This document shows, one piece after another, positions 137 through 16,858 of a stretch of 64,000 bases of DNA. Numbering within the stretch: the stretch's first letter is position 1; each line of letters begins with the position of its first letter. The notes beneath the pieces are model-generated. The model was not told the origin of the DNA. It ran no database searches and worked only from the letters and a program-made list of their open reading frames with translations. The translations under genes were made by a program, and so were the position numbers. Location of the stretch: positions 1 through 64,000 of the forward strand of contig JACCWM010000190.1 in assembly GCA_013697635.1 (NCBI GenBank), given 5' to 3'. Source of the DNA: Lujinxingiaceae bacterium (GTDB lineage Bacteria; Myxococcota_A; Bradymonadia; Bradymonadales; Bradymonadaceae).

Positions 137-2743
<2,607 letters not shown>

Positions 2744-2820
2744 GATCGCAGCGCACCTAGCCAGTTGACGCCGCGCCAAACCCTGTGTAAAAGCGTGGCG
2801 CCTTGGCCACCCAGAGGCAA

Positions 2821-3093
2821 ATGATGACCCAGGATCAACCCGAGCCGTCTCTCGAGCAGGCAAAGGAGTCCGGGGAACGCAACCCCTGGCTCACCATTGG
2901 CATCTTTGGCGCGCTGGGCTTCGAATTCGTAGGTTTCATGATTGTTGGTGCGCTGGTTGGCACCTGGATTGACCGCCGCTGGGATACACAACCCTTCGGC
3001 CTGATTGTCACGATGTTGCTCATGATGCTCGCAGTCGGTTGGCACATAGTGATGATTACACGACGTCTCCACCGAAACGGTGATCCATCATGA
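2821..3093 (+). CDS. atpZ: AtpZ/AtpI-family Fo assembly membrane protein
   Basis: Small integral membrane protein (about 90 aa) with two hydrophobic helices (around residues 22-45 and 55-75) separated by a short loop containing GTWIDRRW, the pattern of AtpZ/'F0F1 ATP synthase assembly protein' proteins that precede atpI and atpB. Family members are thought to aid rotor-ring assembly or Mg/Ca transport; that is general knowledge, not seen here. I place the start at the ATG at 2821 (or 2824), just after AGAGG; an in-frame TTG at 2803 is the alternative. It overlaps the next gene by 4 bases (ATGA), so the two are translationally coupled. Confidence 0.8.
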   Translation: MMTQDQPEPSLEQAKESGERNPWLTIGIFGALGFEFVGFMIVGALVGTWIDRRWDTQPFGLIVTMLLMMLAVGWHIVMITRRLHRNGDPS

Positions 3094-3524
3094 TCGGAAA
3101 ATTCGAAATCAGTTTTGTCGATGGCTTGTTCTGGAAAACGTTGCTCGTGGGCAGCGCCATTGCTCTGGTCAGCGCGCTGGTCATCTCCACGCACTTCGCC
3201 GGCTCGGTGTTGCTTGGTGTTTTGGTGAGCAGCCTCAATATGCGCGTCGTCTGCTTTGCCGGGCGCAAGATGGTCGAGACGTCCGCCGAAGGGCAGTCCG
3301 CTACAGCCTTTTGGAGTGTCATCCTCGGGATCAAGCTCATTTTGCTCATGATCCTGACCTATTACTTCGTGATCGTTTTGGGCGCCAACGTCTTTGGCTT
3401 TGTCATTGGCTACAGCGTCTTTCTCATCGCAATCCTATGGCAATCAATCCTATACGTGTCCAAGCTGTCCCAAGAACCCGACAGCGAGTCGACCGACGGC
3501 ATCCAGGATGCCGACATCCAGTAA
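3090..3524 (+). CDS. atpI: ATP synthase subunit I (AtpI-like)
   Basis: 144-aa membrane protein with four predicted hydrophobic helices (about 12-35, 38-58, 73-95, 98-120) and a short polar C-terminus. Its place between the AtpZ-like protein and atpB is the usual one for subunit I, a chaperone-like factor for c-ring assembly. It starts inside the stop codon of the upstream gene. The sequence has few invariant residues, so the call relies on topology plus operon position. Confidence 0.75.
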   Translation: MIGKFEISFVDGLFWKTLLVGSAIALVSALVISTHFAGSVLLGVLVSSLNMRVVCFAGRKMVETSAEGQSATAFWSVILGIKLILLMILTYYFVIVLGANVFGFVIGYSVFLIAILWQSILYVSKLSQEPDSESTDGIQDADIQ

Positions 3525-3541
3525 AGTAGAGACGGTCGTTC

Positions 3542-4330
3542 ATGGCAGACTATACGTTTGTTGATTTAGTTCCCGCGATAGCCGAGCGAGAGCATGGCAT
3601 CGGTTGGAACGAGGTGTTGTTCTTCGGCAACCCGCTGCTCAACGCCAGCGGCAAGGTGACGATCACGCACTTGATCATGACCGGCCTGTTGGTCGTCGTG
3701 ATCGTCCTGCTGACCTTGATCGCACGGCGAAAATACCGCACACGCGAGGAGGCGCTCATCCCCGGAGGAAGCTTCTCGGTGACGAACTTCTTCGAGATCA
3801 TTTTCGAAGCGATCTTGAAGATGATGAGCGACATGATGGGTGAGAAGGCGGCAAAGCGCTACTTCCCCCTGATCGCCAGCCTCGCCGTCTTCATCTTTTT
3901 CGGCAATTTGATGGGCCTGGTCCCAGGCCTGGCACCGCCCACGGCCAATCTCAATACCGGTCTGGCCTGCGGCCTGGTGGTTTTTGTCGTCTACAATGTC
4001 GGCGGCTTCTGGGAGAGCGGCTTTGCCTACATCAAGCATTTCTTTGGTCCGGTGCTCTTTGTCGCCCCCCTGATCTTTGCCATCGAGCTCGTCGGCCATG
4101 CTTTTCGACCGATCAGCCTCTCGATTCGTCTCGGCGGCAACATGACCGGTGACCACATGGTCATCGGTGTCTTCGGAGATCTGGCGGCGGCCATCGCTGG
4201 CATGCCGTTTTTGTTGCCCGTACCATTTTTGTTTCTCGGCTTGCTCGTTTCCACGATTCAAGCATTGGTTTTTTCCCTGTTATCGACTATTTACATCGCC
4301 CTCGCTGTCCATCACGAAGAAGGGCACTGA
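3542..4330 (+). CDS. atpB: ATP synthase Fo subunit a
   Basis: 262-aa integral membrane stator subunit that forms the two ion half-channels against the c-ring. The essential stator arginine is visible as Arg196 in SLSIRLGGNM, matching E. coli aArg210. Helices at about 50-70, 110-135, 140-160, 170-185 and 215-260 fit the family, and the length is normal. It follows atpI by 17 bases and precedes atpE by 117 bases. The genes for b, delta, alpha, gamma, beta and epsilon are not here, so this is an Fo-only cluster as in several deltaproteobacteria. Confidence 0.96.
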   Translation: MADYTFVDLVPAIAEREHGIGWNEVLFFGNPLLNASGKVTITHLIMTGLLVVVIVLLTLIARRKYRTREEALIPGGSFSVTNFFEIIFEAILKMMSDMMGEKAAKRYFPLIASLAVFIFFGNLMGLVPGLAPPTANLNTGLACGLVVFVVYNVGGFWESGFAYIKHFFGPVLFVAPLIFAIELVGHAFRPISLSIRLGGNMTGDHMVIGVFGDLAAAIAGMPFLLPVPFLFLGLLVSTIQALVFSLLSTIYIALAVHHEEGH

Positions 4331-4447
4331 TCCAAAGCAAGAGTTTCGAGTTCAATCTGGCCATAACCGTCGTTGGGTTTGTATCCGCACAAGCGCGCAC
4401 GTTGGGACCACGTCACCACGTCGCACCGTTCTAGGAGGACGTACTTC

Positions 4448-4804
4448 ATGTTGAAGAAAACTACCGTTTCGTTTCTGAGCATTTTTGCACTCGTCGGTCT
4501 GTACAGCAGCTCGGCCTTCGCCCAGGGCGCCGCAGCCGTTGGCGCCAACCACTACTCGATGTACTCCATGCTCGCGCTTGCCGCGGGTCTGGCCATCGGT
4601 ATCGCCGCGCTCGGCGGCTCGCTTGGCCAGGGCCGCGCTGCTGCCGCCGCGCTCGAGGGCATCGCGCGCAATCCCGGCGCTGCCGGCAAGCTCCTGACCC
4701 CGCTGATTCTCGGTCTGGCGCTGATCGAGTCGCTCGTCATCTATGCTTTCGTCATCGCGATCCTGATGGTGACCAGCATCGACCTGAGCGCCATCCCCCA
4801 GTAA
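4448..4804 (+). CDS. atpE: ATP synthase Fo subunit c with signal-peptide-like N-terminus
   Basis: Rotor-ring proteolipid of 118 aa, longer than the usual 75-90. Residues 1-25 look like a cleavable signal peptide (two Lys, a hydrophobic core, then AFA before Gln26). The mature hairpin has helix 1 (about 38-62), the polar loop ARNPGA at 73-78, and helix 2 with the ion-binding carboxylate Glu94 in IESLVIY. Gln61, Ser95 and Tyr99 match three side chains of the Na+ site known from Ilyobacter c-rings, but the Thr after the Ser is Leu, so ion specificity is open. AGGAGG lies 9 bases before the ATG. A strong terminator follows. Confidence 0.93.
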
Positions 4805-4829
4805 GCTCGATCGCAGCATCGAACGCCTC

Positions 4830-4875
4830 GCAAAGAGGCCCCAGAGCGACTCGCTTTGGGGCCTCTTTGCTTTTC
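4830..4875 (+). terminator. Intrinsic terminator after atpE
   Basis: A perfect 14-bp stem (4830-4843 with 4857-4870, sequence GCAAAGAGGCCCCA on the left arm) with a 13-nt loop is followed by TTTTC. It sits 26 bases after the atpE stop and closes the Fo operon. Because the convergent gene ends at 4891, the same hairpin may also stop transcription from the right. Confidence 0.88.
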
Positions 4876-4890
4876 TTGGACTGCGCGCAC

Positions 4891-5523
4891 TCAGCGCACC
4901 GGATTCTCCCACACGATCCAAACAGCCTCGGCCCCTTTCGTGGCGGGCACGTCGAGCACGCGCGCGCCCGCAAGCAGATGAGCCGTGAGCACCACGTCGA
5001 CAATCGCTCCGCTCTCGACTTGCTGCACGTAGCCCTGCAAGCAGTACACCTCGCGCCAGGTCCGATACCCCTCCAGAAACACGCAGGCAATCCAGCGGCG
5101 CAGCCCCAATCGACGAACCAGTCGTCCGCGACCCAGGCCGTAGAGCGCCTTGATCCGATCGGCATCCACCTCGACGCCAGCCAAGAGGCTCGCACCCAGA
5201 CCCAGGAGCGTGTCGCCATCGCGATCGACGCGGCTCAAAGTCTCCCAGCTTTGGCCGCCAGCCATCCACCAGGCGCGCGCCACCGAGGCGCCAAGGTGCA
5301 CGCGAACTGCGCGACTCCAGCCGACAATCTGGGCGTTTTGCTCGGCCACAACGCCCAGCTCGACCCGGTTCGAGGCCCCGCCGACCAACTCGAGTGCGCG
5401 CCAGCGTGCCAGATCACCGCCCGCGCTCAGAGCAGCGTCTGCCTGGCTCATCGCCCGAACAATCACCGGCCCACCCAACAACTCGGGCCCAACGTCTTTG
5501 GAAGCCATGCGTTTATCCTGCAA
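4891..5523 (-). CDS. Unrecognised protein, 210 aa
   Basis: I do not recognise this family. The frame encodes a balanced globular protein with no clear signal peptide or membrane helix. Notable stretches are a hydrophobic Gly/Leu segment near residues 100-115, an Arg-rich LGRGRLVRRLGLRRW at about 130-145, and beta-rich sequence toward a Trp-containing C-terminus. The opposite strand is also open over this stretch but gives a His/Gln/Pro-rich product typical of an antisense shadow, so I prefer the minus strand. Start may be Met1 or Met6. It converges on the atpE terminator and is a monocistron. Confidence 0.6.
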   Translation of the reverse strand: MQDKRMASKDVGPELLGGPVIVRAMSQADAALSAGGDLARWRALELVGGASNRVELGVVAEQNAQIVGWSRAVRVHLGASVARAWWMAGGQSWETLSRVDRDGDTLLGLGASLLAGVEVDADRIKALYGLGRGRLVRRLGLRRWIACVFLEGYRTWREVYCLQGYVQQVESGAIVDVVLTAHLLAGARVLDVPATKGAEAVWIVWENPVR

Positions 5524-5730
5524 AATCGCGAAGTCAGACCCCCCTCATTGAAGGGCCTTGTTTGGATCGGAAGTCTTGCGTGACCCCATTACGTGTGATT
5601 TAATGCGGCGGCCCGCTGGTAGTTGCAATGAGCGCATTTATCACTTGATTGCTTCAACAATTGTGAAGCACGGCGCGGCGGAAACACAAGCATTTTCCTT
5701 CCTTTGGTAGACCACGGAGCAGGCATCGTA

Positions 5731-7413
5731 ATGATTGTCCAGTGCCCAAGTTGTGCGTCTCGTTACCGCGTCAATGACGCGAACATCCCTCCTTCTGGAG
5801 GAAAGATTCGGTGTCCGTCCTGCGAGCACGCCTTCGTGGTCTATCCGGAGAGCGCCCCGATGGAGATCGAGGACGAGTCGGACAAGACCTCGGTGGCAGC
5901 GCAGCCCAATTTGCGCGAGATCCTCTCCCACATGCAGTCGCGCGGAAACGCCCAGGCGCCCGCCGCTCAGGAGGAGGAAGGTGTAGCGATGACCGAAGTC
6001 ATGTCCGGCACCGATATCCCTGACTTCAACAGCATGTTCAGCCGACCAAGCGCTGCAGCCCAGCCCGAGGGTGGTGAAGATCGCACCGTCGAGATGGCCA
6101 ACCCGCTCAGCCTGATCAACGATCTCTTCCGTGCCAACGCTCCGGCGGCCGTGATCGAAGACGACATGAATACCGCTGAGCTCACGCCCGACGTGGTACG
6201 AAAGAGCATCGAAAAAGCCGCCGCCGCGCGTGCCCAGAGCGCTGCCGCGTCGTCGGCAGCAGCACCGCCGCCCATGCCGCCCATGCAGCCCGGCGGTCCG
6301 CCCAAACGACCGACGATGCCCCCGATGCCCGCCATGCAACCGCCGGCGCCGGTCATCTTGGAGTCACCGCGCGCGGTCACGTTGCCAGCGGAGGCCAACT
6401 CCAGGCCGTTTGCGCCATCGTCCTCGGCCCCGCTTCCTGCGCCCGCCATGATGCCGTCCCAGAGCTTTGGCGAGGAGCCCGTCCTGGTCGCCGAGCCTGC
6501 CCCTAATCCCGACCACGTCGGCCCCTGGAAGCTGCGCACAAACTTCGGCCTGACCTATGAGTTTCCAGATACCAAGGGCCTCAAGAGCTGGTTGTCCAAC
6601 CGCGAGGAGCTCGACGGTTACGCGCTCTCCGGCGACGGCGACAACTTTTTCGAACTCGATCGTTTCCCCCAGCTGCGGGCCTCGGCCTCCTCTTTGCGCC
6701 GATCGGGCAACTTCGCCGCCCAGCAGCCTGCCAGTGCCGGGAACATGACGCCCAACATGCCCGGCAACATGCCCGGCGGCCTGGCGGCCAATCCCGGGAT
6801 CCGCTCGACAGGCAATTTCGGCGCCGCAGCGCCGCCCTCACTGTCGAGCTCCTCACCATTTTCGACGGCCAACGGCCTGCGAAACGACGTGCCCGCGTCG
6901 CTGCCCGTCAATGCCGGCCCCAAGATCAAAGCCGAGTCCTATCGCCCACCCTCGCGCGAGGCCAAGTGGAACGTTGTGCTCTGGCCCTTGTTTGCGCTGC
7001 TGCTGATCATCGCTGGCGGCTTGTTCGTGCAGGCTGTTGGGCTTTACGACGTTCAGGGAGCTTTGCTCGGCACGCCCGAGCCCGCGCTTGTGCCCGAGAT
7101 CAAGCCGATCACCGAGATTGCACCGGTCTTGGACGGTGCTGAGCAAGCCGAGGCCGCCGCTCAACGCAAGGCGCGCCAACGCGAGCAAGTCGATCGCATC
7201 GTCGCCGATGCAAGCCTGGACATGGAGTCCAACCGCCTGCAAACCGCCGCCGAGAAGCTCACGACGGCCAAAGCCCTCGACCCTTCACGCATTCAGATCT
7301 ACGAGATGTTAGGCGAGGTGTACACCAAGCTCGGCCAAACCGAGCAAGCCTCACAGGCGCGCGAGACGTTGGCTAATCTGCGTGAAACCGGGGCGGGCTC
7401 AGAGAACCAGTAG
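5731..7413 (+). CDS. Zn-ribbon / GYF-like / TM / TPR protein (first of tandem pair)
   Basis: About 560 aa. Residues 1-35 form an MJ0042-type zinc ribbon with CPSC and CPSC knuckles. A long Ala/Pro/Met-rich linker follows, then a GYF-like module around 255-310 (GPWKLRTNFGL to FELDRFPQL), another linker, one transmembrane helix at about 410-435, and TPR-like helices at the C-terminus (about 480-555). Topology would put the zinc ribbon and GYF-like module in the cytoplasm and the TPRs outside. The start at ATG 5731 places the first knuckle at the very N-terminus, with GGAG upstream. The myxobacterial gliding protein GltJ/AgmX has the same Zn-ribbon plus GYF order; the TPR tail differs. Function here is inferred only. 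Confidence 0.82.
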   Translation: MIVQCPSCASRYRVNDANIPPSGGKIRCPSCEHAFVVYPESAPMEIEDESDKTSVAAQPNLREILSHMQSRGNAQAPAAQEEEGVAMTEVMSGTDIPDFNSMFSRPSAAAQPEGGEDRTVEMANPLSLINDLFRANAPAAVIEDDMNTAELTPDVVRKSIEKAAAARAQSAAASSAAAPPPMPPMQPGGPPKRPTMPPMPAMQPPAPVILESPRAVTLPAEANSRPFAPSSSAPLPAPAMMPSQSFGEEPVLVAEPAPNPDHVGPWKLRTNFGLTYEFPDTKGLKSWLSNREELDGYALSGDGDNFFELDRFPQLRASASSLRRSGNFAAQQPASAGNMTPNMPGNMPGGLAANPGIRSTGNFGAAAPPSLSSSSPFSTANGLRNDVPASLPVNAGPKIKAESYRPPSREAKWNVVLWPLFALLLIIAGGLFVQAVGLYDVQGALLGTPEPALVPEIKPITEIAPVLDGAEQAEAAAQRKARQREQVDRIVADASLDMESNRLQTAAEKLTTAKALDPSRIQIYEMLGEVYTKLGQTEQASQARETLANLRETGAGSENQ

Positions 7414-7478
7414 GCGCTTGTCGCCTTGTTTGCTTTGCCATCCCTCGCTCGCGCGACGCCTTTGCCCCGACGGAGTCC

Positions 7479-9044
7479 ATGGACGTCTGCTGCCCACAGT
7501 GCCGCACGGTTTACGAGTTCGACGAGCGACAGATTCGCTCGGGCGCTGTCACTCTCAAATGCAGTCAGTGTCAACACCTCTTTCGCCTCGAGGTCCCTGC
7601 AGCACACGTGGAGGAGAACCATCGCCGCTGGATGGTAAAAAGCGCCAGCAGCGGGGACATCCTCTATTTTGCCGGCTTCGACGTGCTGCACCGCTGGATC
7701 ATGGAGCGCAAGGTCCAAAAGGACGACGCGATCTCGCGCACCGGCAAGAGCTGGAAAACGCTTGGCACGATCGGCGAGTTCATGCCGATCTTTCAAGTCG
7801 TCGAAAGCATCGCCAACATCTCCTCGGCCAGCGAGCCCATGCGATCCGCCGTTCGCGCGCACACCCCCAGCCAACCGCGCGCTGGCGTGCTCGCCGATCC
7901 ACCCGCTGCAAACGCCACCGCGCCCGAGCGCAAACGCGCCACGACAAACCCTCAGTACGCCGCGCCACCGCGCCAAGCACCGGCGCTCGCCCCCACTAAG
8001 CCCGCGCCACAACCATCATCGCAGCCACCGCTGCCCCCTCGGCCCGCCTCCGGCTCGCAACCAAGCGCTCGGCGAAGCTCCTCGCCGACACCAGCGCGGC
8101 CACCGAGCGCGCCGACGCCCGCAAAACTCGTGCAACCCGAGGCGGATACCAGTGTGACTCAGCGCAGTGCGCCGCGCGTTCGCCTCGACAACAGTCCCCT
8201 GCACCGCGTATCGGACACCGCCGAGCTCAATCGCGTAGTTCCCCCCAATCCTGCTCAAGACGATGCCTGGAGTCTGGGAGATCTCAACGTCGGAGCAGCC
8301 GAGCAATCCGATCTAGGTGAATTGGCGCTCACGCCCGCCCGACGGTCCAAGTGGCCACTGATCGCGGCAATGGTCGTCTTGCTGGGCGGCGCAGCCTACG
8401 CATTCGTAGGCCACGGTGAGCAAATCCAAAGCTGGATGGCCTCGCTCAGCGAGCCCAGCGTGGTCACGCTCGGTGAGACGCCGGCCGTGGCACTGCCCGC
8501 AAAGTCGGCAACTTCGCCATCGTCGGCCGCCGTCCACCGGGCTGTCACTGCGGCCGAGGACCTCACCCGCGAAAAAGAAATCAAGCAAATCCGGGAGGCT
8601 ACGAGCGAAGCGGCCGCCGAGGTCAAGACCGCCCTGCCGGCTGCTCAAGATGCCGCCCAGCAGGCACAACGCCCCGATCTGCCCTCGCTCCTCTCTACGG
8701 CCGCGCGCGCGCTCGAGCGAGGCGACGCTGAGCGTGCGCGACGCATCTACCATCAGGTGATCCAGATCGACAGCAACAACGCCGAGGCGATCACCGGCCT
8801 GGGTTGGACACTGCTCGCGCTGGGAAGCCCGGATTCGGCCATCGCCCAGTTTCAGCGCGCCCTGCACCGCGATCCCAATTTTGGGGATGGCTACATCGGC
8901 CTGGGCCGCGCCGAGCGCGCGCGCGGCAACCTCGACGAGGCCCTTCGCGCCTACGAGGGCTATCTCTCACGCTTCCCGGCCGGCCCCCAGGCGAGCATCG
9001 CACGCTACCAAAGCGATCAACTGCGCCAGGCGATTGGCCAGTAG
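7479..9044 (+). CDS. Zn-ribbon / GYF-like / TM / TPR protein (second of tandem pair)
   Basis: 521 aa with the same plan as its upstream neighbour. The zinc ribbon at 1-33 has CPQC and CSQC knuckles. A clearer GYF_2-like module follows directly at about 50-105 (RRWMVKSASSGDILY to EFMPIF), then a Pro/Ser/Thr-rich linker to about residue 260, a transmembrane helix near 288-308, and three or so TPR units at 405-515. The two proteins differ in the distance between ribbon and GYF-like module, so they are old paralogues or a co-selected pair. They lie 65 bases apart on the same strand. The Pro-rich linkers could be intramolecular ligands of the GYF-like fold, as GYF domains bind proline motifs; this is inference. 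Confidence 0.82.
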   Translation: MDVCCPQCRTVYEFDERQIRSGAVTLKCSQCQHLFRLEVPAAHVEENHRRWMVKSASSGDILYFAGFDVLHRWIMERKVQKDDAISRTGKSWKTLGTIGEFMPIFQVVESIANISSASEPMRSAVRAHTPSQPRAGVLADPPAANATAPERKRATTNPQYAAPPRQAPALAPTKPAPQPSSQPPLPPRPASGSQPSARRSSSPTPARPPSAPTPAKLVQPEADTSVTQRSAPRVRLDNSPLHRVSDTAELNRVVPPNPAQDDAWSLGDLNVGAAEQSDLGELALTPARRSKWPLIAAMVVLLGGAAYAFVGHGEQIQSWMASLSEPSVVTLGETPAVALPAKSATSPSSAAVHRAVTAAEDLTREKEIKQIREATSEAAAEVKTALPAAQDAAQQAQRPDLPSLLSTAARALERGDAERARRIYHQVIQIDSNNAEAITGLGWTLLALGSPDSAIAQFQRALHRDPNFGDGYIGLGRAERARGNLDEALRAYEGYLSRFPAGPQASIARYQSDQLRQAIGQ

Positions 9045-9049
9045 GTGAA

Positions 9050-12000
9050 CTAGCCCAGACGCACGACCTTGGCTCCAAAGAGGCGCTCGATCGACATCAT
9101 CAGATCGTCGGTGGGCTCGATCCAATAGCGCTGCGGCAGCTGCATCTCGGCTTGGCCCGCGCCGTCTTCGTTTTGGACGTGAAAGATCAGGCTCGTGCGA
9201 CAGCCTCCCGCATAGTTGGTGAACAGACGGCGCAGCTTGTCGAGCGAGCCGTTGGACACCCCGCTGACCTCGATGTCGACGAGCATACGGTTGACCAGAC
9301 GCTTTCGCTCCGAGATCAGCGTCGTCACCTCCTCGCAGCGCACCCGCCGGGTGCGGGCATCGAGATCGCCATCATCTTGGACCTGGCCGCGCACCAACAA
9401 GGGCTCGCCGGACTTGATCACCTCCTCGTAGAGCGCAAAGCCGGCGCTAAAGACGATCACCTCGATCTCGCCGGTCTTGTCCTCGAGCTTGATAAAGGCC
9501 ATGCGCCCATCACCGCTCTTGAGCGGCACCTCGCGCATCTCGCTGACCACCCCGGCGATCGCCACCGTATCGCGGTGATTGACGCGAACCCCGGCATGCA
9601 CGGTGGCCGTCGTGGTCGCCCCGTACAGCCCGAACTCGCTCTCGAAGCGGTCGAGCGGGTGGCCGATGACATAAAAACCCAGCAATTCCTTCTCGTAGAT
9701 CAGCAGCTGGCGATCCGACCAGGGCTCACTCTCGGCGTAGGTATCCTCCAAGAATTCGTCGCGAGCCTGCGCGCTCATCATGCCAAAGAGGCTTGATTGG
9801 CCCACCGCACGGTCATGCTGGCTCTTCTGGCCGCGCTCGATCGCCGTCTCGATCGCCACGAACAACGACGCGCGCGAGGCACAAATATCGCCCATGCTGC
9901 CCACGCGGTGGGCGGGGCCGATCGAGTCAAAAGCGCCGCATTTGACCAGCGCCTCGACCGTGCGCCGATTGATCTTTTTCAAGTCCACGCGCGAGCAGAA
10001 GTCAAACAGGCTCTTGAACGCGCCGCTCTTCGTGCGCTCCTCCAAGATCACCTCGATGACGCCGGCGCCCACGCCCTTGATCGCCGCCAGACCAAAGCGG
10101 ATCTTCTGGTCGACGACGCTGAAATCGAGCTTGGACTCGTTGACATCGGGCGGCAGCACGTCGATGCCCATGCCCTTGGCTTCGTTGATGAAGCGCACGA
10201 TCTTGTCGGTGTTGTCGCGGTCGTTGGTCATGAGCGCAGCCATGAACTCAACCTTGTAGTGCGCCTTCAAATACGCCGTGCGGTAGGTGATCAGCGCATA
10301 GGCCGCCGAGTGCGACTTGTTGAAGCCGTAGCCGGCGAAGTAGGCCATCAGATCGAAGACCTCCTCGGCCGTGCGCTCATTGACCTCGAGTTTGACCGCG
10401 CCCTCGACGAAGCCGGCTTTTTGCTGGGCCATGACCTCGGCCTTCTTCTTACCCATCGCCCGGCGCAGCAAGTCGGCGCCGCCCAGCGTGTAGCCGGCCA
10501 GCACCTGGGCGATCTTCATGACCTGCTCCTGGTAGACCATGACGCCATAGGTCGGCTTGAGCACGTCTTCGAGCCAGGGATGCGGGTACTTCACCTCTTT
10601 TCGGCCATGTTTGCGGTCGATGAAGTCTTCGACCATGCCCGTTCCAAGCGGGCCGGGGCGGTACAAGGCCACCGCGGCGATGATATCCTCGAAGCAGTCC
10701 GGCTTGAGTTTTTTGAGCAACTCCTGGAAGCCCGAGGACTCCAACTGAAAGACGCCGGTGGTGTCGCCGGCCGAGATCAGCTTGAAGACCTTGGGATCGG
10801 TGAGCCCGATGAAGTTGATGTCGAACATCTCCTCGCCACGCACCGAGCGCTGATCGTTGATCAGGCGCACGGCGTCTTCGATGACGGTGAGCGTCTTGAG
10901 GCCCAGAAAGTCGAACTTGACCAGGCCTGCCTCCTCGACCTCGCTCTTGGCGTACTGCGTGACGTACTCGCCATTGGCCCCGCGACAAATCGGTACATAC
11001 TCCCAAAGCGGGCGCTCTGAGATCACCACGCCGGCGGCGTGAATGCCGGCTTGGCGGTTCAAATTCTCCAGCGAGAGCGCGATGTCGAAGAGTGTTTTGA
11101 CCCGCTCGTCCTCGTCACACATCTGGCGAAGGCGCTTCTCCTGCTCGAGCGTCTCCTTGAGCGTGATGCCGAGCACCTCGGGCACGAGCTTGGCGATGCG
11201 ATCGGTCTCGCCAAAGCTCAGCTTGAGCGCGCGGCCGACGTCGCGAATGCACGCGCGCGCCTTGAGCTGGCCGTAGGTGATGATCTGGCCGACATTTTGC
11301 TGACCGTACTTCTTGGTGACGTAGTCGATCACCTCCACGCGCCGATTCATGCAAAAATCGATGTCGAAATCCGGCATCGAGACGCGCTCCGGGTTGAGAA
11401 AGCGCTCGAAGAGCAAATCGTAGGGGATCGGATCGATGTCGGTGATGCGCATCGCATAGGCCACCAGGCTGCCCGCGCCTGAGCCGCGCCCAGGCCCCAC
11501 CGGAATGCCGTTCTCGTGTGACCAGCGGATAAAATCCCACACGATCAGAAAGTAGCCAGGAAAATCCATCTGCTGAATGATCCCGACTTCCTCGACCAGG
11601 CGCGCCTCGTAGAGCGCGCGGTCGTAGCTCAGACCCAGCGCGTCGAACTCGACGAAGCGCTGGACCAGGCCGTCGTGGGCGATCTGGGCAAAATAAGCAT
11701 GGATTCCACCCTGCACGTCGCTTATCGCGTGCTCTTCGCGAAACTCCACGGGCACGTCGTAGCTGGGCAGGTAAACCTCGCCCAAAGGGATCGTCAGATC
11801 GCACATCTCAGCGATCTTGAGCGTGTTCTCGCATGCCTCGGGGATATCCCCAAAAGCCTCCCACATCTCCTGGGCGCTTCGCACATAGAGCTGATCGACG
11901 CCGTGCTCGAGGATGCGCTCGATATTGACCGTCTTTTGGAGCTGAATGCTCATCAAGACGGCGTGCGCACGCGCGTCCTCACGGCGCACATAGTGGCAGT

Positions 12001-12616
12001 CGTTGGTGGCGACCAGCCCCACCTCGAGCTCGCGCGACAACTCCACCATGGCCTGCGTGCACTTGCGTTGCTCAGGAAGTGCGTTGTCCATGACCTCCAG
12101 ATAGTAGCGATCGCGCCCGAAGATCTCGCGATAGCGGCCCACCAGCTGGCGCGCGCCCTCCAGATCGCCCTTCAAGATCGCCTGGTTGACCTCGCCGCCC
12201 AGATCGCCGGACAAACACACCAGTCCCTCCTGATGATCAGCCAACAGATCGACATCGATGCGCGGGATACCGGTGCGCTCGTGCTGGCCCTCGAGCCAGG
12301 CCATCGAGTTCAAGTACATCAGATTCTTGTAGCCCTGAAGGTTCGTGGCGAGCAGCGTCAGGTGGTAGCTCTTGGGGGCCTTGTTGGTGCGAAAATTCGG
12401 CTGCGTCATGTACATCTCGCAGCCGATGATCGACTTCAGCCCATACTTCTGCGCGGCCTTTTGAAAGTCGACGCCGCCGTACATGTTGCCGTGATCGGTC
12501 ATCGCGACCGCACCCATGCCCAGCTCCTTGACGCGGGCCATCAGATCGGGAATGCGGATCGCCCCATCGAGCAAACTGTACTGTGTATGCACATGCAGAT
12601 GTACGAAATCATTCAT
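9050..12616 (-). CDS. dnaE: DNA polymerase III alpha subunit
   Basis: Replicative DNA polymerase (1188 aa from the chosen start). The N-terminal PHP domain begins HLHVHTQYSLLDGA and keeps most metal ligands of the active PHP type (two His in HLHVH, MTDHGN, GCEMY, YHLTLL, NDCHY). The polymerase core has catalytic Asp416 and Asp418 in PDFDIDF and Asp569 in KFDFLGLKT. An OB fold (IAGVVSEMREV) is near residue 1020. The frame stays open upstream to 12718, but the conserved start is Met at 12616; the extra 34 residues do not resemble the family. It converges on the Zn-ribbon gene with 5 bases between stops. Confidence 0.97.
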   Translation of the reverse strand: MNDFVHLHVHTQYSLLDGAIRIPDLMARVKELGMGAVAMTDHGNMYGGVDFQKAAQKYGLKSIIGCEMYMTQPNFRTNKAPKSYHLTLLATNLQGYKNLMYLNSMAWLEGQHERTGIPRIDVDLLADHQEGLVCLSGDLGGEVNQAILKGDLEGARQLVGRYREIFGRDRYYLEVMDNALPEQRKCTQAMVELSRELEVGLVATNDCHYVRREDARAHAVLMSIQLQKTVNIERILEHGVDQLYVRSAQEMWEAFGDIPEACENTLKIAEMCDLTIPLGEVYLPSYDVPVEFREEHAISDVQGGIHAYFAQIAHDGLVQRFVEFDALGLSYDRALYEARLVEEVGIIQQMDFPGYFLIVWDFIRWSHENGIPVGPGRGSGAGSLVAYAMRITDIDPIPYDLLFERFLNPERVSMPDFDIDFCMNRRVEVIDYVTKKYGQQNVGQIITYGQLKARACIRDVGRALKLSFGETDRIAKLVPEVLGITLKETLEQEKRLRQMCDEDERVKTLFDIALSLENLNRQAGIHAAGVVISERPLWEYVPICRGANGEYVTQYAKSEVEEAGLVKFDFLGLKTLTVIEDAVRLINDQRSVRGEEMFDINFIGLTDPKVFKLISAGDTTGVFQLESSGFQELLKKLKPDCFEDIIAAVALYRPGPLGTGMVEDFIDRKHGRKEVKYPHPWLEDVLKPTYGVMVYQEQVMKIAQVLAGYTLGGADLLRRAMGKKKAEVMAQQKAGFVEGAVKLEVNERTAEEVFDLMAYFAGYGFNKSHSAAYALITYRTAYLKAHYKVEFMAALMTNDRDNTDKIVRFINEAKGMGIDVLPPDVNESKLDFSVVDQKIRFGLAAIKGVGAGVIEVILEERTKSGAFKSLFDFCSRVDLKKINRRTVEALVKCGAFDSIGPAHRVGSMGDICASRASLFVAIETAIERGQKSQHDRAVGQSSLFGMMSAQARDEFLEDTYAESEPWSDRQLLIYEKELLGFYVIGHPLDRFESEFGLYGATTTATVHAGVRVNHRDTVAIAGVVSEMREVPLKSGDGRMAFIKLEDKTGEIEVIVFSAGFALYEEVIKSGEPLLVRGQVQDDGDLDARTRRVRCEEVTTLISERKRLVNRMLVDIEVSGVSNGSLDKLRRLFTNYAGGCRTSLIFHVQNEDGAGQAEMQLPQRYWIEPTDDLMMSIERLFGAKVVRLG

Positions 12617-12838
12617 GTTTTTACGACACAACGAGGAGAAAAGAAGCGAGCCCACGGCACAGCCAACAGCAACGGCGCGCATGATAACCAAATGCCCGCG
12701 CATTGGTAAAGCGGCCAACCGACGCTGAGGCGAATCAGCGCGCCGACCCTCTCAGCCATGGCGTCCATCTGCGCCTTGTGCTAGGATCGAGCGCGCACAG
12801 CCTCGAAATAATACAAAACCATATCAACGACTTGAATC

Positions 12839-14161
12839 ATGCCTGGCACCCGATTTGCGTTCGTACTCGCCATCGTCTCGATCGTCTGCCTGGGGCTGTC
12901 GGCCTGCCAGAGCTGTGAACAAAACGAGCCCGTTTCCACGCGCTTCTTCGAGCCCTATGAGACCGGCGAGTACGTCTTCGACGGCGCGCCTGCGCTCGAG
13001 GCGCCCCGGCGCATCATGTTCGGCGACGCCGCCCCCGATCAGATCGTCGAGCGCGCGATCCGGGTACGCAACGTCGGCCGTCTGCCGCTTCGCCTCGAGC
13101 GCTGGGAGCTCACGGCCCACTTCAGCGCCCAGACCCTGCCCGCCTCGAGCTCGCCACCCGAGCCGATCTTGCCCGGCCAGAGCCTCACGCTGGTCGTCCG
13201 CCTCACCGCACCCTCGCAGGAAGCGATCCGGGGCCGGCTGATCTTGCACAGCAACGATCCCCACCAGCCCGAGTTTCCCATCGAGCTCTTTGCCAACGAG
13301 GCGCTGCCCTGCCTGAGCCTTGCGCCCGCCGATGTTCTGGATTTTGGCCGAACCGAGCTCGACACGACGGTGCCAGGTATCGTCGAGGCCCACAATTGCA
13401 GCCCCAACGCGGCGACGACGCTGCGCCTCGAGCGCCTCGAAGGTGACGCCGCCTTCGCGCTGCACGCACCGGCCTTGTACGACGAGATCATCCTCGCACC
13501 GGGCCAGTCCACCCTCATCGAGCTGGCCTACTCGCCAGTTAATCCCGGCCCGGCCCTCGGCCGACTGCACATCACCACCAACGACACCTTCGAGAATCCG
13601 CGCGCCGTCGAGCTTCGCGGCGTGGCCACCGGCTCGACTTGCCTGGGCGCGACCCCCTGGCAGATGCACCCCGGCGCCGGCGTGATCTGCTTTGGCCGCA
13701 GCTTCGAACACCACGGCGCACCCGAGGCCTACGCCTATGGCGCCGTGCCACACCCCGACGCCTCGGCTTGGGCCGACGTCGCGAACAACCGCATCAGCTT
13801 CAACGCGCCCTCGCGCCTTTGCAACACGGACTGCGCCTGTCTCAACGGCGGCGACTTCACCTACTTTCAGACCTTCTTCACCTACCGCCCGGGAGACGAC
13901 GTCCGCTCACTGCACCTGGGCGTCTACGACGTCGACGACGGCGTACGCGTGAACATCTACAACGAGCTCCGCCCCCAGGGCACCACCGTCTCCTACGCTT
14001 ATCTCTTCGATGACACGCGCGTCGAGCTGGCCCAACACCTCGCACCTGGCACCAATCGCATCGTCTTGACCCACCTCGACGACTGCTGCCAGGACCGCGC
14101 GATTCGCCGCGTCGAGCTCAGCCACAACGGCCAACCGGCAGCGATCTGCGCACCCGAGTGA
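12839..14161 (+). CDS. Secreted lipoprotein with two ASH/DUF1573-like Ig domains
   Basis: 440 aa. Signal peptide with lipobox LSAC (Cys23). Two beta-sandwich repeats of the ASH/'choice-of-anchor D' type follow: the first (about 55-155) has VRNVGRLPLRLERWEL and LHSNDPHQPEFPIEL, the second (about 160-265) has LDFGRTEL and ITTNDTFENPRAVEL. The C-terminal half (270-440) is Cys- and aromatic-rich, with a beta-rich end carrying YRPGDDVRSLHLGVYDVDD, like a carbohydrate- or protein-binding module. Probably attached to the outer membrane; partner unknown. No good Shine-Dalgarno precedes the ATG. Confidence 0.75.
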   Translation: MPGTRFAFVLAIVSIVCLGLSACQSCEQNEPVSTRFFEPYETGEYVFDGAPALEAPRRIMFGDAAPDQIVERAIRVRNVGRLPLRLERWELTAHFSAQTLPASSSPPEPILPGQSLTLVVRLTAPSQEAIRGRLILHSNDPHQPEFPIELFANEALPCLSLAPADVLDFGRTELDTTVPGIVEAHNCSPNAATTLRLERLEGDAAFALHAPALYDEIILAPGQSTLIELAYSPVNPGPALGRLHITTNDTFENPRAVELRGVATGSTCLGATPWQMHPGAGVICFGRSFEHHGAPEAYAYGAVPHPDASAWADVANNRISFNAPSRLCNTDCACLNGGDFTYFQTFFTYRPGDDVRSLHLGVYDVDDGVRVNIYNELRPQGTTVSYAYLFDDTRVELAQHLAPGTNRIVLTHLDDCCQDRAIRRVELSHNGQPAAICAPE

Positions 14162-14175
14162 GCCACACCTGCCCC

Positions 14176-15492
14176 TCAAACACCCCACGGATACGTATCG
14201 AGCCCGCCCTTGTGGGCCGGGCGCGTGTGCAAGGGATGCAGCGCGTCGCCCTGATCAAAGAAGACAAAGCCGTCGTAGCGGCTGGTCAAAACGGTCGAGA
14301 CGTAGTTGTGCAGGCGATCGGCGACCGGCTGATAGACCACGCCAATGGCCCGGTGGCCGCGCACCTTGCGGGCGAGCTCGCTTTGGGCGAGGTCGTCGGT
14401 GATCAGCAGCCAATCGTGCTCGCCGGCCAGATGAAACGCTTCCTCCCAGCTTCCTGAGGCCGCCGGCGGCGTCGTCATGCGCTCCATCGGCGCGCCCCAT
14501 GCCCGCCCGGCGATGACCGATCCGTGATGCGAGCCAAAACCAACGAGCGCCACCGCGTCGTCGCCGTAGCGCTCGCGGGCAAGCTGGCCCAGATTGAACA
14601 TCCCATAGCCAGCCATGTCGGTGGCACGCGCATCCCCGATATGGGTGTTATGCGCCCACACGATCGCCTTGGAGTCTGGACCATGGCGCTCGAGCAGCCT
14701 GTCGAGCGTCTCCATCATGTGATGGTCTCGGATGTTCCACGCGTGCGGTCCACCGCGCACCATCGTGCGGTAGTAGCGCTCGGCGTTGAGCATGACTTGA
14801 GCATTTTGCTCCAGATCGAAGCGCTCGCGCGCCTCTTCGCTCAGACGTGTGCTGCGCTCGCGAAGACGGACCATCAGCTCCACCACCTCGTCTTCGCACG
14901 ATGCCCCGACGATCGCCGTCGCGCGCGCATAGGCCTGATCATCGAAACCATAGGGCTCAAAGCAGGCCGCCGCCAGGCGTGCTGCCTGCAATGCCTGGGG
15001 ATCGCGCTCCTCGAGGTAGGCCAGCACCGTGGCCATCGAGTCCCACAGGCTGTAGACATCGAGCCCAAAGAATCCTACCTGCGCCGGGGCGCCCAACGCG
15101 CGATTGTGCTCGCGCAGCCATTCGCACAGGAGGACGACCTCGACATTGGCCCACATCCACGTCGGCCAGCGCTCAAACGCGCGCAAGATCTGGGCGCCCT
15201 CCGGCTCGCCAGCAATGCGACCCTTGATGAAGTCATCGACCCGATGACAGTCCGGCCAGTCACCCTCGACGCCGATAAAACCAAAGCCTTTCTCTCGGAT
15301 CAAGCGTTTGCTCAGATGAGTGCGCGCCGTATAGAACTGCGAGGTGCCGTGGCTCGCCTCGCCAAGCAGCACGAGGCGCGCATCACCGATGCGCTCGATC
15401 AACGGCTCGAAGCCGTCGTCTTCGAGCGCGTAGGCATGCTTGCGCAGTTGGGCGGCCAACTCCTTGTTTTCGCTTTCATGGTGGTGGTCCAT
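14176..15492 (-). CDS. Erythromycin-esterase-family protein
   Basis: 438 aa from the ATG at 15492 (MDHHHESENK); a longer frame to 15642 lies inside the upstream gene and is unlikely. Family landmarks are LLGEASHGTSQFY near residue 45, GVEGDWPDCHRV near 75, ERWPTWMWAN, the HNTHIGDARATDM motif near 270, and VGFGSHHG. These are the conserved His and Glu residues of EreA/succinoglycan-biosynthesis-type hydrolases. Most chromosomal members next to phosphoribosyltransferases have unknown substrates, so macrolide resistance should not be assumed. It overlaps the upstream gene by 17 bases and is likely translated with it. Confidence 0.88.
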   Translation of the reverse strand: MDHHHESENKELAAQLRKHAYALEDDGFEPLIERIGDARLVLLGEASHGTSQFYTARTHLSKRLIREKGFGFIGVEGDWPDCHRVDDFIKGRIAGEPEGAQILRAFERWPTWMWANVEVVLLCEWLREHNRALGAPAQVGFFGLDVYSLWDSMATVLAYLEERDPQALQAARLAAACFEPYGFDDQAYARATAIVGASCEDEVVELMVRLRERSTRLSEEARERFDLEQNAQVMLNAERYYRTMVRGGPHAWNIRDHHMMETLDRLLERHGPDSKAIVWAHNTHIGDARATDMAGYGMFNLGQLARERYGDDAVALVGFGSHHGSVIAGRAWGAPMERMTTPPAASGSWEEAFHLAGEHDWLLITDDLAQSELARKVRGHRAIGVVYQPVADRLHNYVSTVLTSRYDGFVFFDQGDALHPLHTRPAHKGGLDTYPWGV

Positions 15493-16858
15493 CGGCGTAC
15501 TCCCTGCTTCTTTCGCCACTGAGAAATCGCTCAAACCAGTCCCCGGCCAACTCGGCGACCTGCTCGAGTGCGCCAGGCTCGGGGAAGAGATGGCTTGCGC
15601 CCTCGATGATCTCCAGGCGTGCAAGCCCCCCCAACGGGCCAAGCACCTGGCGATTCAGCTCGATCACCTGAGCATCCTCGCCGCCGACGATCAGAAGTGT
15701 TGGTGCAGTGACTGCGCTCACCGCATCGGCAGCCAGATCCGAGCGTCCACCGCGTGAGACCAGCGCACGAATAGAGTCCGGACGCGCCGCCGCCGCGATC
15801 AACGCCGCCGCCGCCCCCGTGCTCGCCCCGAACAGCCCGATGCGCAGAGTTTGAGTCGCCTCGTTGAGCGTCAACCAGTCCACCGCGCCGATCAGGCGCC
15901 GGGCCAACAGCCCGATGTCGAATCGCAGGTGGCGCGTGCGCCGGTCGACGATCTCCTCATCGGGCGTCAACAAGTCGATAAGCAAGGTCCCAAGACCGTG
16001 CTCATGCAAGGCGGCCGCCACAAAACGGTTGCGCGCGCTGAAACGGCTGCTGCCGCTGCCATGCGCAAACAACACAATCCCCTGGGCACCTCGTGGCACA
16101 CAAAGGCTGGCTTCGAGCGTGACGTTCTCCGTCGTCACGCGGACCAATGACTCACGCATGGGGCTTCTCTCCTCAGCTCCTCGTCGCGCGCTCTGCTCGA
16201 CTGCGGGCTCATCCGAGCGCTTGTGCACCTGACGGCCCCGTTCGAGCAGCAGGTGGACCTCGGAGTCGGTGGTCTGCTCAAAGTCGCCATACCAGGCACC
16301 GACGCCAAAAAACGGCGACGGTGTCTTCAAGCACACCACCTCGTCGGCGTTCTCGCTCATCAGCGCGCAGGCTTGCGTCGAACCCACCGGTACCGCAACC
16401 ACGAGCTTTGCTGGCTCGAGCTCGCGCACGGCCCGCGTGGCGGCGAGCATCGTCGCCCCGGTGGCCAACCCGTCGTCGATGAGGATCACCGTCTTGTCGC
16501 GTATCTGGGGAGGCGCTCGCTCGCCACGGTAGCGTTGCTCGCGACGCTCGATCTCCTCGCGCTCGCGCGCGATCACCGCCTCGACGAGTTGCTCGGGGAT
16601 GCCCAACAACCGCAGCACATCCTCGTTGAACACCACGATTCCGCCGCTTGCGATCGCGCCCATGGCCAGCTCCGGCTGGCCGGGCACCCCGATTTTTCGA
16701 ACGATGAACACGTCAAGCGGCGCGCCCAGGGCCTGGGCGACCTGATAGGCCACCGGAACGCCACCGCGCGGTAGGGCCAAGATGACCGCGTCGGGACCGA
16801 AGTCTCGGAGGCGCTCGGCCAGCTTTTGGCCCGCGTCAAATCGATCTTCGAACAACAT
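15476..16858 (-). CDS. Phosphoribosyltransferase fused to alpha/beta hydrolase
   Basis: 460-aa fusion. Residues 1-215 are a type I phosphoribosyltransferase with the PRPP loop VILIDDGLATGAT at about 121-133 and an upstream FVRKIGVPGQPELA-type segment. Residues 240-445 are a dienelactone-hydrolase-like alpha/beta hydrolase with the HGSGSS oxyanion strand, a nucleophile elbow GLFGASTGAAAA, an Asp in GGEDAQVI and a catalytic His in GASHLF. This fusion, paired with an erythromycin-esterase homologue, is a known combination in proteobacteria, often in stress-gene clusters; its substrate is not known. It is the first gene of the two-gene unit. Confidence 0.88.
   Translation of the reverse strand: MLFEDRFDAGQKLAERLRDFGPDAVILALPRGGVPVAYQVAQALGAPLDVFIVRKIGVPGQPELAMGAIASGGIVVFNEDVLRLLGIPEQLVEAVIAREREEIERREQRYRGERAPPQIRDKTVILIDDGLATGATMLAATRAVRELEPAKLVVAVPVGSTQACALMSENADEVVCLKTPSPFFGVGAWYGDFEQTTDSEVHLLLERGRQVHKRSDEPAVEQSARRGAEERSPMRESLVRVTTENVTLEASLCVPRGAQGIVLFAHGSGSSRFSARNRFVAAALHEHGLGTLLIDLLTPDEEIVDRRTRHLRFDIGLLARRLIGAVDWLTLNEATQTLRIGLFGASTGAAAALIAAAARPDSIRALVSRGGRSDLAADAVSAVTAPTLLIVGGEDAQVIELNRQVLGPLGGLARLEIIEGASHLFPEPGALEQVAELAGDWFERFLSGERSREYADGPPP

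Follow-up and report, generated by a model that had tools for sequence, protein, structure and literature searches.

A tandem pair of predicted zinc-ribbon and GYF-like membrane proteins of Myxococcota whose heads resemble that of the gliding protein GltJ

GltJ (AgmX), a component of the Agl-Glt gliding machinery of Myxococcus xanthus (NF033761), is composed of a zinc ribbon (structure 7zok), a GYF-type domain (7z3c), a linker, one transmembrane (TM) helix and a periplasmic part, in that order. MglA-GTP and AglZ bind to a motif close to the ribbon, after which the ribbon recruits MglB. The gene gltJ was described by Luciano et al. (2011), in an article whose main text mentions neither zinc nor GYF (PMC3169522). 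A comparable N-terminal ribbon, with cysteines C5, C8, C28 and C31, is carried by the bitopic Caulobacter crescentus protein ZitP (2nb9), which uses W35 together with a basic patch to bind PopZ; the ribbon of AgmX, with an isoleucine at position 35, is reported not to be polar in Caulobacter (PMC5182065). The GYF domain and the zinc ribbon are both mentioned in an article on GTPase-centred conflict systems, in passages that do not describe the genes considered here (PMC7159879). In this article we describe two adjacent genes, A and B, in a stretch of 64,000 nucleotides (the window) from Lujinxingiaceae bacterium (assembly GCA_013697635.1, contig JACCWM010000190.1, forward strand), whose predicted products combine the two head modules of GltJ with a tail of tetratricopeptide repeats (TPRs).

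Gene A (5731..7413, 560 residues) and gene B (7479..9044, 521 residues) both lie on the plus strand, begin with ATG and are separated by 65 nucleotides (nt). A sequence-only reading of this DNA had proposed two neighbouring genes at 5731-9044 encoding the same modules, and both points were confirmed: each product comprises a zinc ribbon, a GYF-like module, one TM helix and TPRs, an order that is kept in the orthologues. In A, an acidic, Pro-rich linker separates the ribbon from the GYF-like module and a second linker precedes the TM helix. In B, the GYF-like module is followed by a Pro-rich and probably disordered linker (7815..8351), with 13 and 15 prolines per 60 residues over residues 121-240. 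The reading that we prefer, and to which we give an even chance, is that an old tandem duplication gave rise to A and B as two sister proteins of the inner membrane, both bitopic, which act together as an adaptor between cytoplasm and periplasm.

Both zinc ribbons are of the MJ0042 type and score above the Pfam cut-off (PF13717). The ribbon of A covers residues 1-38 (5731..5844), with a match over residues 1-35 at E 4.5e-14, and that of B residues 1-36 (7479..7586; E 2.7e-11). Against TIGR02098 (cut-off 20.9 bits) they score 51.9 and 27.4 bits, respectively, and the two CxxC knuckles are present. C5, C8, C28 and C31 are invariant, together with F35, in 18 A sequences and 19 B sequences. When solved structures were searched, A matched the ribbons of ZitP (2nb9, E 1.1e-7) and GltJ (7zok, E 4.8e-5) and B matched that of GltJ (7zok, E 0.002); judged by sequence, these two ribbons are the closest solved relatives of those of A and B. 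The pair resembles ZitP in its bitopic layout and in the position of the ribbon and its cysteines, but has F35 in place of W35 and adds a GYF-like module and TPRs. Since residue 35 is an invariant phenylalanine in A and B, a tryptophan in ZitP and an isoleucine in AgmX/GltJ, the ligand of the ribbon may be a third one.

The GYF-like modules (A, residues 262-318, 6514..6684; B, residues 50-112, 7626..7814) were assigned by AlphaFold2 models and profile comparison. When 18 A modules and 19 B heads were scanned with Pfam, no GYF family was recognised in them, GYF_2 (PF14237) included. Comparison of profiles, which at the level of sequence is stronger evidence than the fold scores, linked A to B at E 4.2e-7 (probability 93), a score equalled by none of 100 column shuffles; a first hhalign run with shallow alignments had given E 0.0017 and a probability of only 15%. 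The B profile matched that of 31 GltJ-type GYF_2 domains at E 2.7e-6 (probability 89), and again none of 100 shuffles scored as high. An iterated search started from the B module alone had taken in 39 of 45 A-type open reading frames (ORFs; the loci overlap in part) by round 5, together with none of 32 GYF_2 ORFs and, at E up to 10, none of 5434 reversed ORFs. On this evidence the A and B modules are homologous to each other, as the sequence-only reading had supposed, and GYF_2 of the GltJ type is a further relative of the B module.

Models built from the window sequence and loci L047-L060 (L, G and C numbers are our handles for loci, genomes and contigs) used 15 rows for the B head and 12 for the A module, and reached a mean predicted local distance difference test score of 84.9 (m7ae1a29584bd) and 82.2 (mf3e14546f37d), respectively, with elements in the order strand-strand-helix-strand-helix. 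The top Foldseek rows for B were the GYF domains of GIGYF2 (7rup), GltJ (7z3c) and Smy2, the zinc ribbon of ZitP (2nb9) matching the other half of the head (E 0.07-0.15; probability 0.99 for 7rup, 7z3c and 2nb9). For A, an HNH endonuclease ranked first (E 0.25), followed by the GYF domains of GIGYF2/1 and Smy2 (probability 0.89 for 7rup and 0.84 for 7ruq), with that of GltJ at rank 14. The HNH endonuclease and topoisomerase chains among these rows were set aside, since the match that recurs, and that spans most of the module, is the GYF domain. In VIA comparisons, B aligned with 7z3c at Z 5.4 (root-mean-square deviation 5.4, 66 residues aligned) and with 7rup at Z 4.8, and A aligned with 7ruq at Z 5.0 (deviation 2.9, 56 residues) and with 7z3c at Z 4.0. 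The GYF-like fold suggested from the letters of the DNA is thereby supported by the models for both proteins. A search of solved structures with the sequence of the A module gave a plant receptor kinase as best match (E 0.008) and copies of a bacterial toxin component at E 0.05-0.25, all of which were taken as chance. Separately, chains of the TIC plastid import complex (8z9y_E, 7vcf_Q) were found to align with both modules at Z 4.6-5.8, about equal to the GltJ GYF domain.

In the alignments, GP[FY] and GYF are absent from both proteins, and a tryptophan is kept in 19 of 19 B sequences and in at least 90% of the 18 A sequences. We take this residue to be the helix tryptophan of the signature GP[FY]...W...GYF of the proline-binding site. 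The GYF domains of GIGYF1/2, Smy2 and the CD2BP2 type have the predicted fold and the helix tryptophan in common with A and B, but their GP[FY] is missing from the pair, and their ligand motif, PPG followed by a hydrophobic residue, is not enriched in it. The motif was found in 5 of 19 A orthologues (5 against a shuffle mean of 2.5 and maximum of 8) and in 2 of 21 B orthologues (2 against a mean of 1.0 and maximum of 4), and in neither protein of the window. The proposal that the Pro-rich linkers are ligands of the proteins' own GYF modules was consequently abandoned, as the counts fall within the shuffle range and GP[FY] is absent. The modules are probably not canonical PPG-peptide binders.

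Each protein has a single strong hydropathy peak, corresponding to a predicted TM helix at residues 415-433 in A (6973..7029; hydropathy 2.65) and at residues 293-311 in B (8355..8411), where RRSK stands just N-terminal of the helix. The charges flanking the helix on its N- and C-terminal sides (+3/-2 in A, 0/-2 in B) fit an N-in topology and would place the TPR tail in the periplasm. The predicted periplasmic TPRs are strong in B (residues 411-503, 8709..8987; TPR_19, E 3.7e-17), whereas those of A (residues 498-543, 7222..7359; TPR_19, E 0.0043) are weak and lie below every Pfam cut-off. A PHROGs search gave no match for A and, for B, one weak row in the TPR part.

Of the 21 genomes of the family (this one included), 18 have A immediately before B, as do 5 of 5 in the sister family, gene orders being read from match listings. 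The exceptions are G006, with a fragment of B at a contig start and no A, G019, in which A is cut off by a contig end, and G003, discussed below. A named collection yielded 17 loci, of which 14 hold real relatives of B; A is directly upstream in all 14, although in 3 of them only a part of it is seen, the contig beginning inside A. These pair-bearing loci include Lujinxingia vulgaris, one Bradymonadaceae metagenome-assembled genome (MAG) and 'Myxococcales' MAGs. Across the phylum (284 genomes, each at least 85% complete), a profile of the B head matched 247 genomes, a figure that includes zinc-ribbon-only matches, and a profile of the A GYF module matched 91, including 56 from outside the class. 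Fifteen of these 56 had coordinates in both listings: the two matches were same-strand neighbours in 11, within the same protein in 3 and on different contigs in 1. At 20 other loci outside the class, an A-type gene was directly followed by a second GYF gene of the same family in 16; the remainder comprised one marginal case (L192), two loci with no second gene (L184, L193) and one contig end (L195). In another family, at locus L112, B is preceded by a gene that lacks the zinc ribbon and combines a GYF-like module with a hydrophobic stretch and a tail resembling TPRs; the two genes occupy 2695-5385 and 5349-7871 on the plus strand.

A tree of 61 GYF modules separated A (28) from B (33) with support of 100/93, and the same split was present in 100% of 200 bootstrap trees. 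The tree, which rests on 55 columns and has an unsettled bootstrap and some long branches, was used for this split only, and its labels were assigned from gene order and profile, not blind. Its rows were 12 of 19 A and 12 of 21 B sequences from the class, L126, 15 of the 20 outside pairs and five B-only loci; L192, L195, L184 and L193 were excluded for the reasons already given, and L196 because its second frame is partly covered. Two GYF clans sharing one tandem order most likely mean that the duplication predates the split of these families. That the pair goes back to an old tandem duplication and occurs across the phylum is a point beyond the sequence-only reading.

The surroundings of the pair change between lineages. 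In the window, gyrA (137-2743) and then ATP synthase genes lie upstream, and a convergent dnaE-like gene (9050-12718) lies downstream of B; the names uvrD, glmU, dnaE and ATP synthase a/c subunits are readings of the sequence made without a family search. The interval of some 900 nt that separates A from the presumed atpE (4805-5730) contains a long ORF on the minus strand (4891-5523) and another on the plus strand (4867-5583), both only possibly coding and with no Pfam match. When ORFs were clustered, gyrA-atp stood beside the pair in the window and in 4 of the 14 named loci, and kinase and cinA genes were found downstream in a few loci. ORFs of the sppA type were seen at 10 of the 20 loci L108-L127, L110 alone having been scanned with Pfam; in other Myxococcota families such a gene immediately follows the B homologue. 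Among other recurrent neighbours are uvrD-like ORFs (16 of 49 loci) and glmU-like ORFs. No neighbour was constant across the clustered loci, and none is therefore used as functional evidence; the shifting surroundings suggest a self-contained two-gene unit.

Despite the common order of modules, neither protein is GltJ. The tail of GltJ is of the AgmX/PglI type where that of A and B consists of TPRs, and the GYF signature has been lost in the pair. The GltJ model NF033761 (cut-off 450 bits) matched A with 29.3 bits over residues 4-90, that is, ribbon and linker, and left B unmatched at E up to 1, as the tail model NF033768 did both proteins. Neither the surroundings of the pair in the window nor the recurrent neighbours of the clustered loci included a gene recognised as glt, agl or pil. 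The likeness to GltJ drawn by the sequence-only reading thus holds for the heads, with their ribbon and GYF-type module (that of B related to GYF_2), and fails for the tail, the GYF_2 signature, the cut-off score and the glt neighbourhood, which together rule out that A or B is GltJ. Better candidates are encoded at C15 and C119 of this genome. The C15 protein (659 residues) has a GYF_2 domain (E 7.9e-15), scores 137 bits with the GltJ model and 59.3 bits with the tail model (cut-off 40), and has GltC-like (163.7 bits) and GltE-like (108.8 bits) neighbours. The C119 protein (718 residues; GYF_2, E 7.3e-14) has a tail just below that cut-off (39.3 bits) and a GltG-like gene (171.6 bits) nearby. 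Both have the zinc ribbon, GYF domain, linker and single TM helix of A and B but, unlike them, a recognisable GYF_2 and an AgmX/PglI-type tail. None of this set reaches the curated NCBIfam cut-off for GltJ, GltC, GltE or GltG, and none of 57 genomes passes that for GltJ. By these comparisons A and B are a separate branch with the same head modules.

The C15 locus (L067, 47000-62000) holds, at 6810-14995 on the minus strand and at 4320-5087, the GltJ-like and GltE-like genes, a large TPR protein with YbgF/BamD-type repeats and the GltC-like gene, with a Tgl-like lipoprotein nearby. At C119 (L066, 14000-30000), the genes at 6933-9089 and 14448-15815 (minus) and at 12243-14003 (plus) include the GltJ-like and GltG-like genes with an SppA-type protease-like gene between them. 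The mglA-type gene whose presence the sequence-only reading had proposed to check was found at C102, its product 67% identical to M. xanthus MglA. A total of 55 of 57 genomes carry mglA, the two misses being 88-89% complete.

By sequence and prediction, A and B each have a cytosolic head of zinc ribbon and GYF-type module, joined by one TM helix to a C-terminal TPR tail that the flanking charges place in the periplasm. In the adaptor, each head would dock a cytosolic regulator or scaffold, as the same modules do in GltJ with MglA-GTP, AglZ and MglB, the docking by the ribbon being comparable to that of ZitP with PopZ, and the TPR tails would bring partners in the envelope together at a particular site. 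A plausible cue would be the polarity GTPase MglA, and in this family the linker threonines of A may be kinase sites that switch docking.

Several observations weigh against this adaptor. The fold matches are modest, with every Foldseek E above 0.05 and Z of about 4-6, and the A profile does not match GYF_2 significantly (27 of 100 shuffles score as high), so that the link of A to GYF_2 runs via B. Loci from other families (L108-L111, L113-L119, L122-L125) hold a B homologue but gave no match to the A profile in its vicinity. The complete locus of G003 (L170) has B after the ATP synthase genes, with the gyrA-atp position kept and A truly missing: B does not strictly need A. A small hairpin with a T-rich stretch (7412-7426) immediately follows the stop codon of A; this terminator-like site, one of 5 in the region where 3.0 are expected, may lower read-through into B, and co-transcription of the two genes is only putative. 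Finally, the glt partners are encoded elsewhere, at C15 and C119, and not beside the pair.

Two other explanations seem to us unlikely, though worth keeping in view. In one, the head of A or B would bind MglA-GTP directly, in the strict sense of GltJ, and the TPR tail would assemble a motility, pilus or predation machine. The two head modules are those of GltJ, the match of A to the GltJ model lies in ribbon and linker, and mglA was found in 55 of 57 genomes; however, mglA is near-universal in the relatives searched and its co-occurrence cannot discriminate, the GltJ tail and any recognised glt, agl or pil neighbour are absent, and residue 35 is neither the isoleucine of AgmX/GltJ nor the tryptophan of ZitP (PMC5182065). 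The other explanation, similarly unlikely, is a housekeeping envelope scaffold with no relation to polarity GTPases, which might serve the synthesis of the cell wall, for instance, or a constriction of the Tol-Pal type. It would suit the wide distribution, the generic protein-binding nature of TPR tails and the housekeeping character of the neighbours (gyrA-atp, uvrD-like, glmU-like, sppA), but these neighbours vary by lineage and say little about function, and the head modules are those of polarity and motility adaptors. A bolder form of the adaptor, which we think decidedly doubtful, would be a phylum-wide two-subunit switch of Myxococcota, in which two adjacent GltJ-type heads read either the gradient of a polarity GTPase or whether A is phosphorylated, and place a platform of TPRs in the periplasm independently of the gliding machinery.

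A stretch of the first linker of A (5881..6186) contains four conserved threonine motifs, at T53 (15 of 16 orthologues), T88 (15 of 16), T119 (13 of 16) and T148 (14 of 16), in a linker with a mean conservation of 0.40. Among 19 A linkers the motif [DE]xTx[VIEM] was counted 35 times, where shuffles gave a mean of 5.1 and at most 12; it is not enriched in B (3 in 21 linkers against a mean of 4.6). These putative kinase sites are a possible phospho-switch, in sequences that are related and with a kinase untied to the pair. That they make A a phospho-threonine scaffold, modified by Ser/Thr kinases and docked by FHA proteins while the TPR tail senses or recruits envelope proteins, is improbable: the genome has 37 FHA matches and a kinase gene lies downstream of the pair in a few loci, but B lacks the enrichment, the relatives are not independent, by eye the A relative of L120 has one similar motif and that of L126 none, and the kinase is separated from the pair by an opposite-strand cinA and is absent beside the pair of the window. 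By eye, similar motifs (KTSIG, SETMLI) also occur in the linker of a third zinc-ribbon membrane protein of this genome, which has no GYF module (C43, L001 from 1501).

No description of such an A-B pair was found in the open-access literature searched, and within that literature the pair appears to be undescribed. If the preferred reading of A and B as paired adaptors is true, GltJ would not be a one-off, and a broader group of membrane adaptors would share its ribbon/GYF head. Among them, the pair would be an old and widespread example, missed by domain databases because its GYF modules diverged. It would also offer a direct route to two questions: what MglA-type polarity systems position, apart from gliding, in social and predatory members of the Myxococcota, and which GYF domains no longer use proline-rich ligands.

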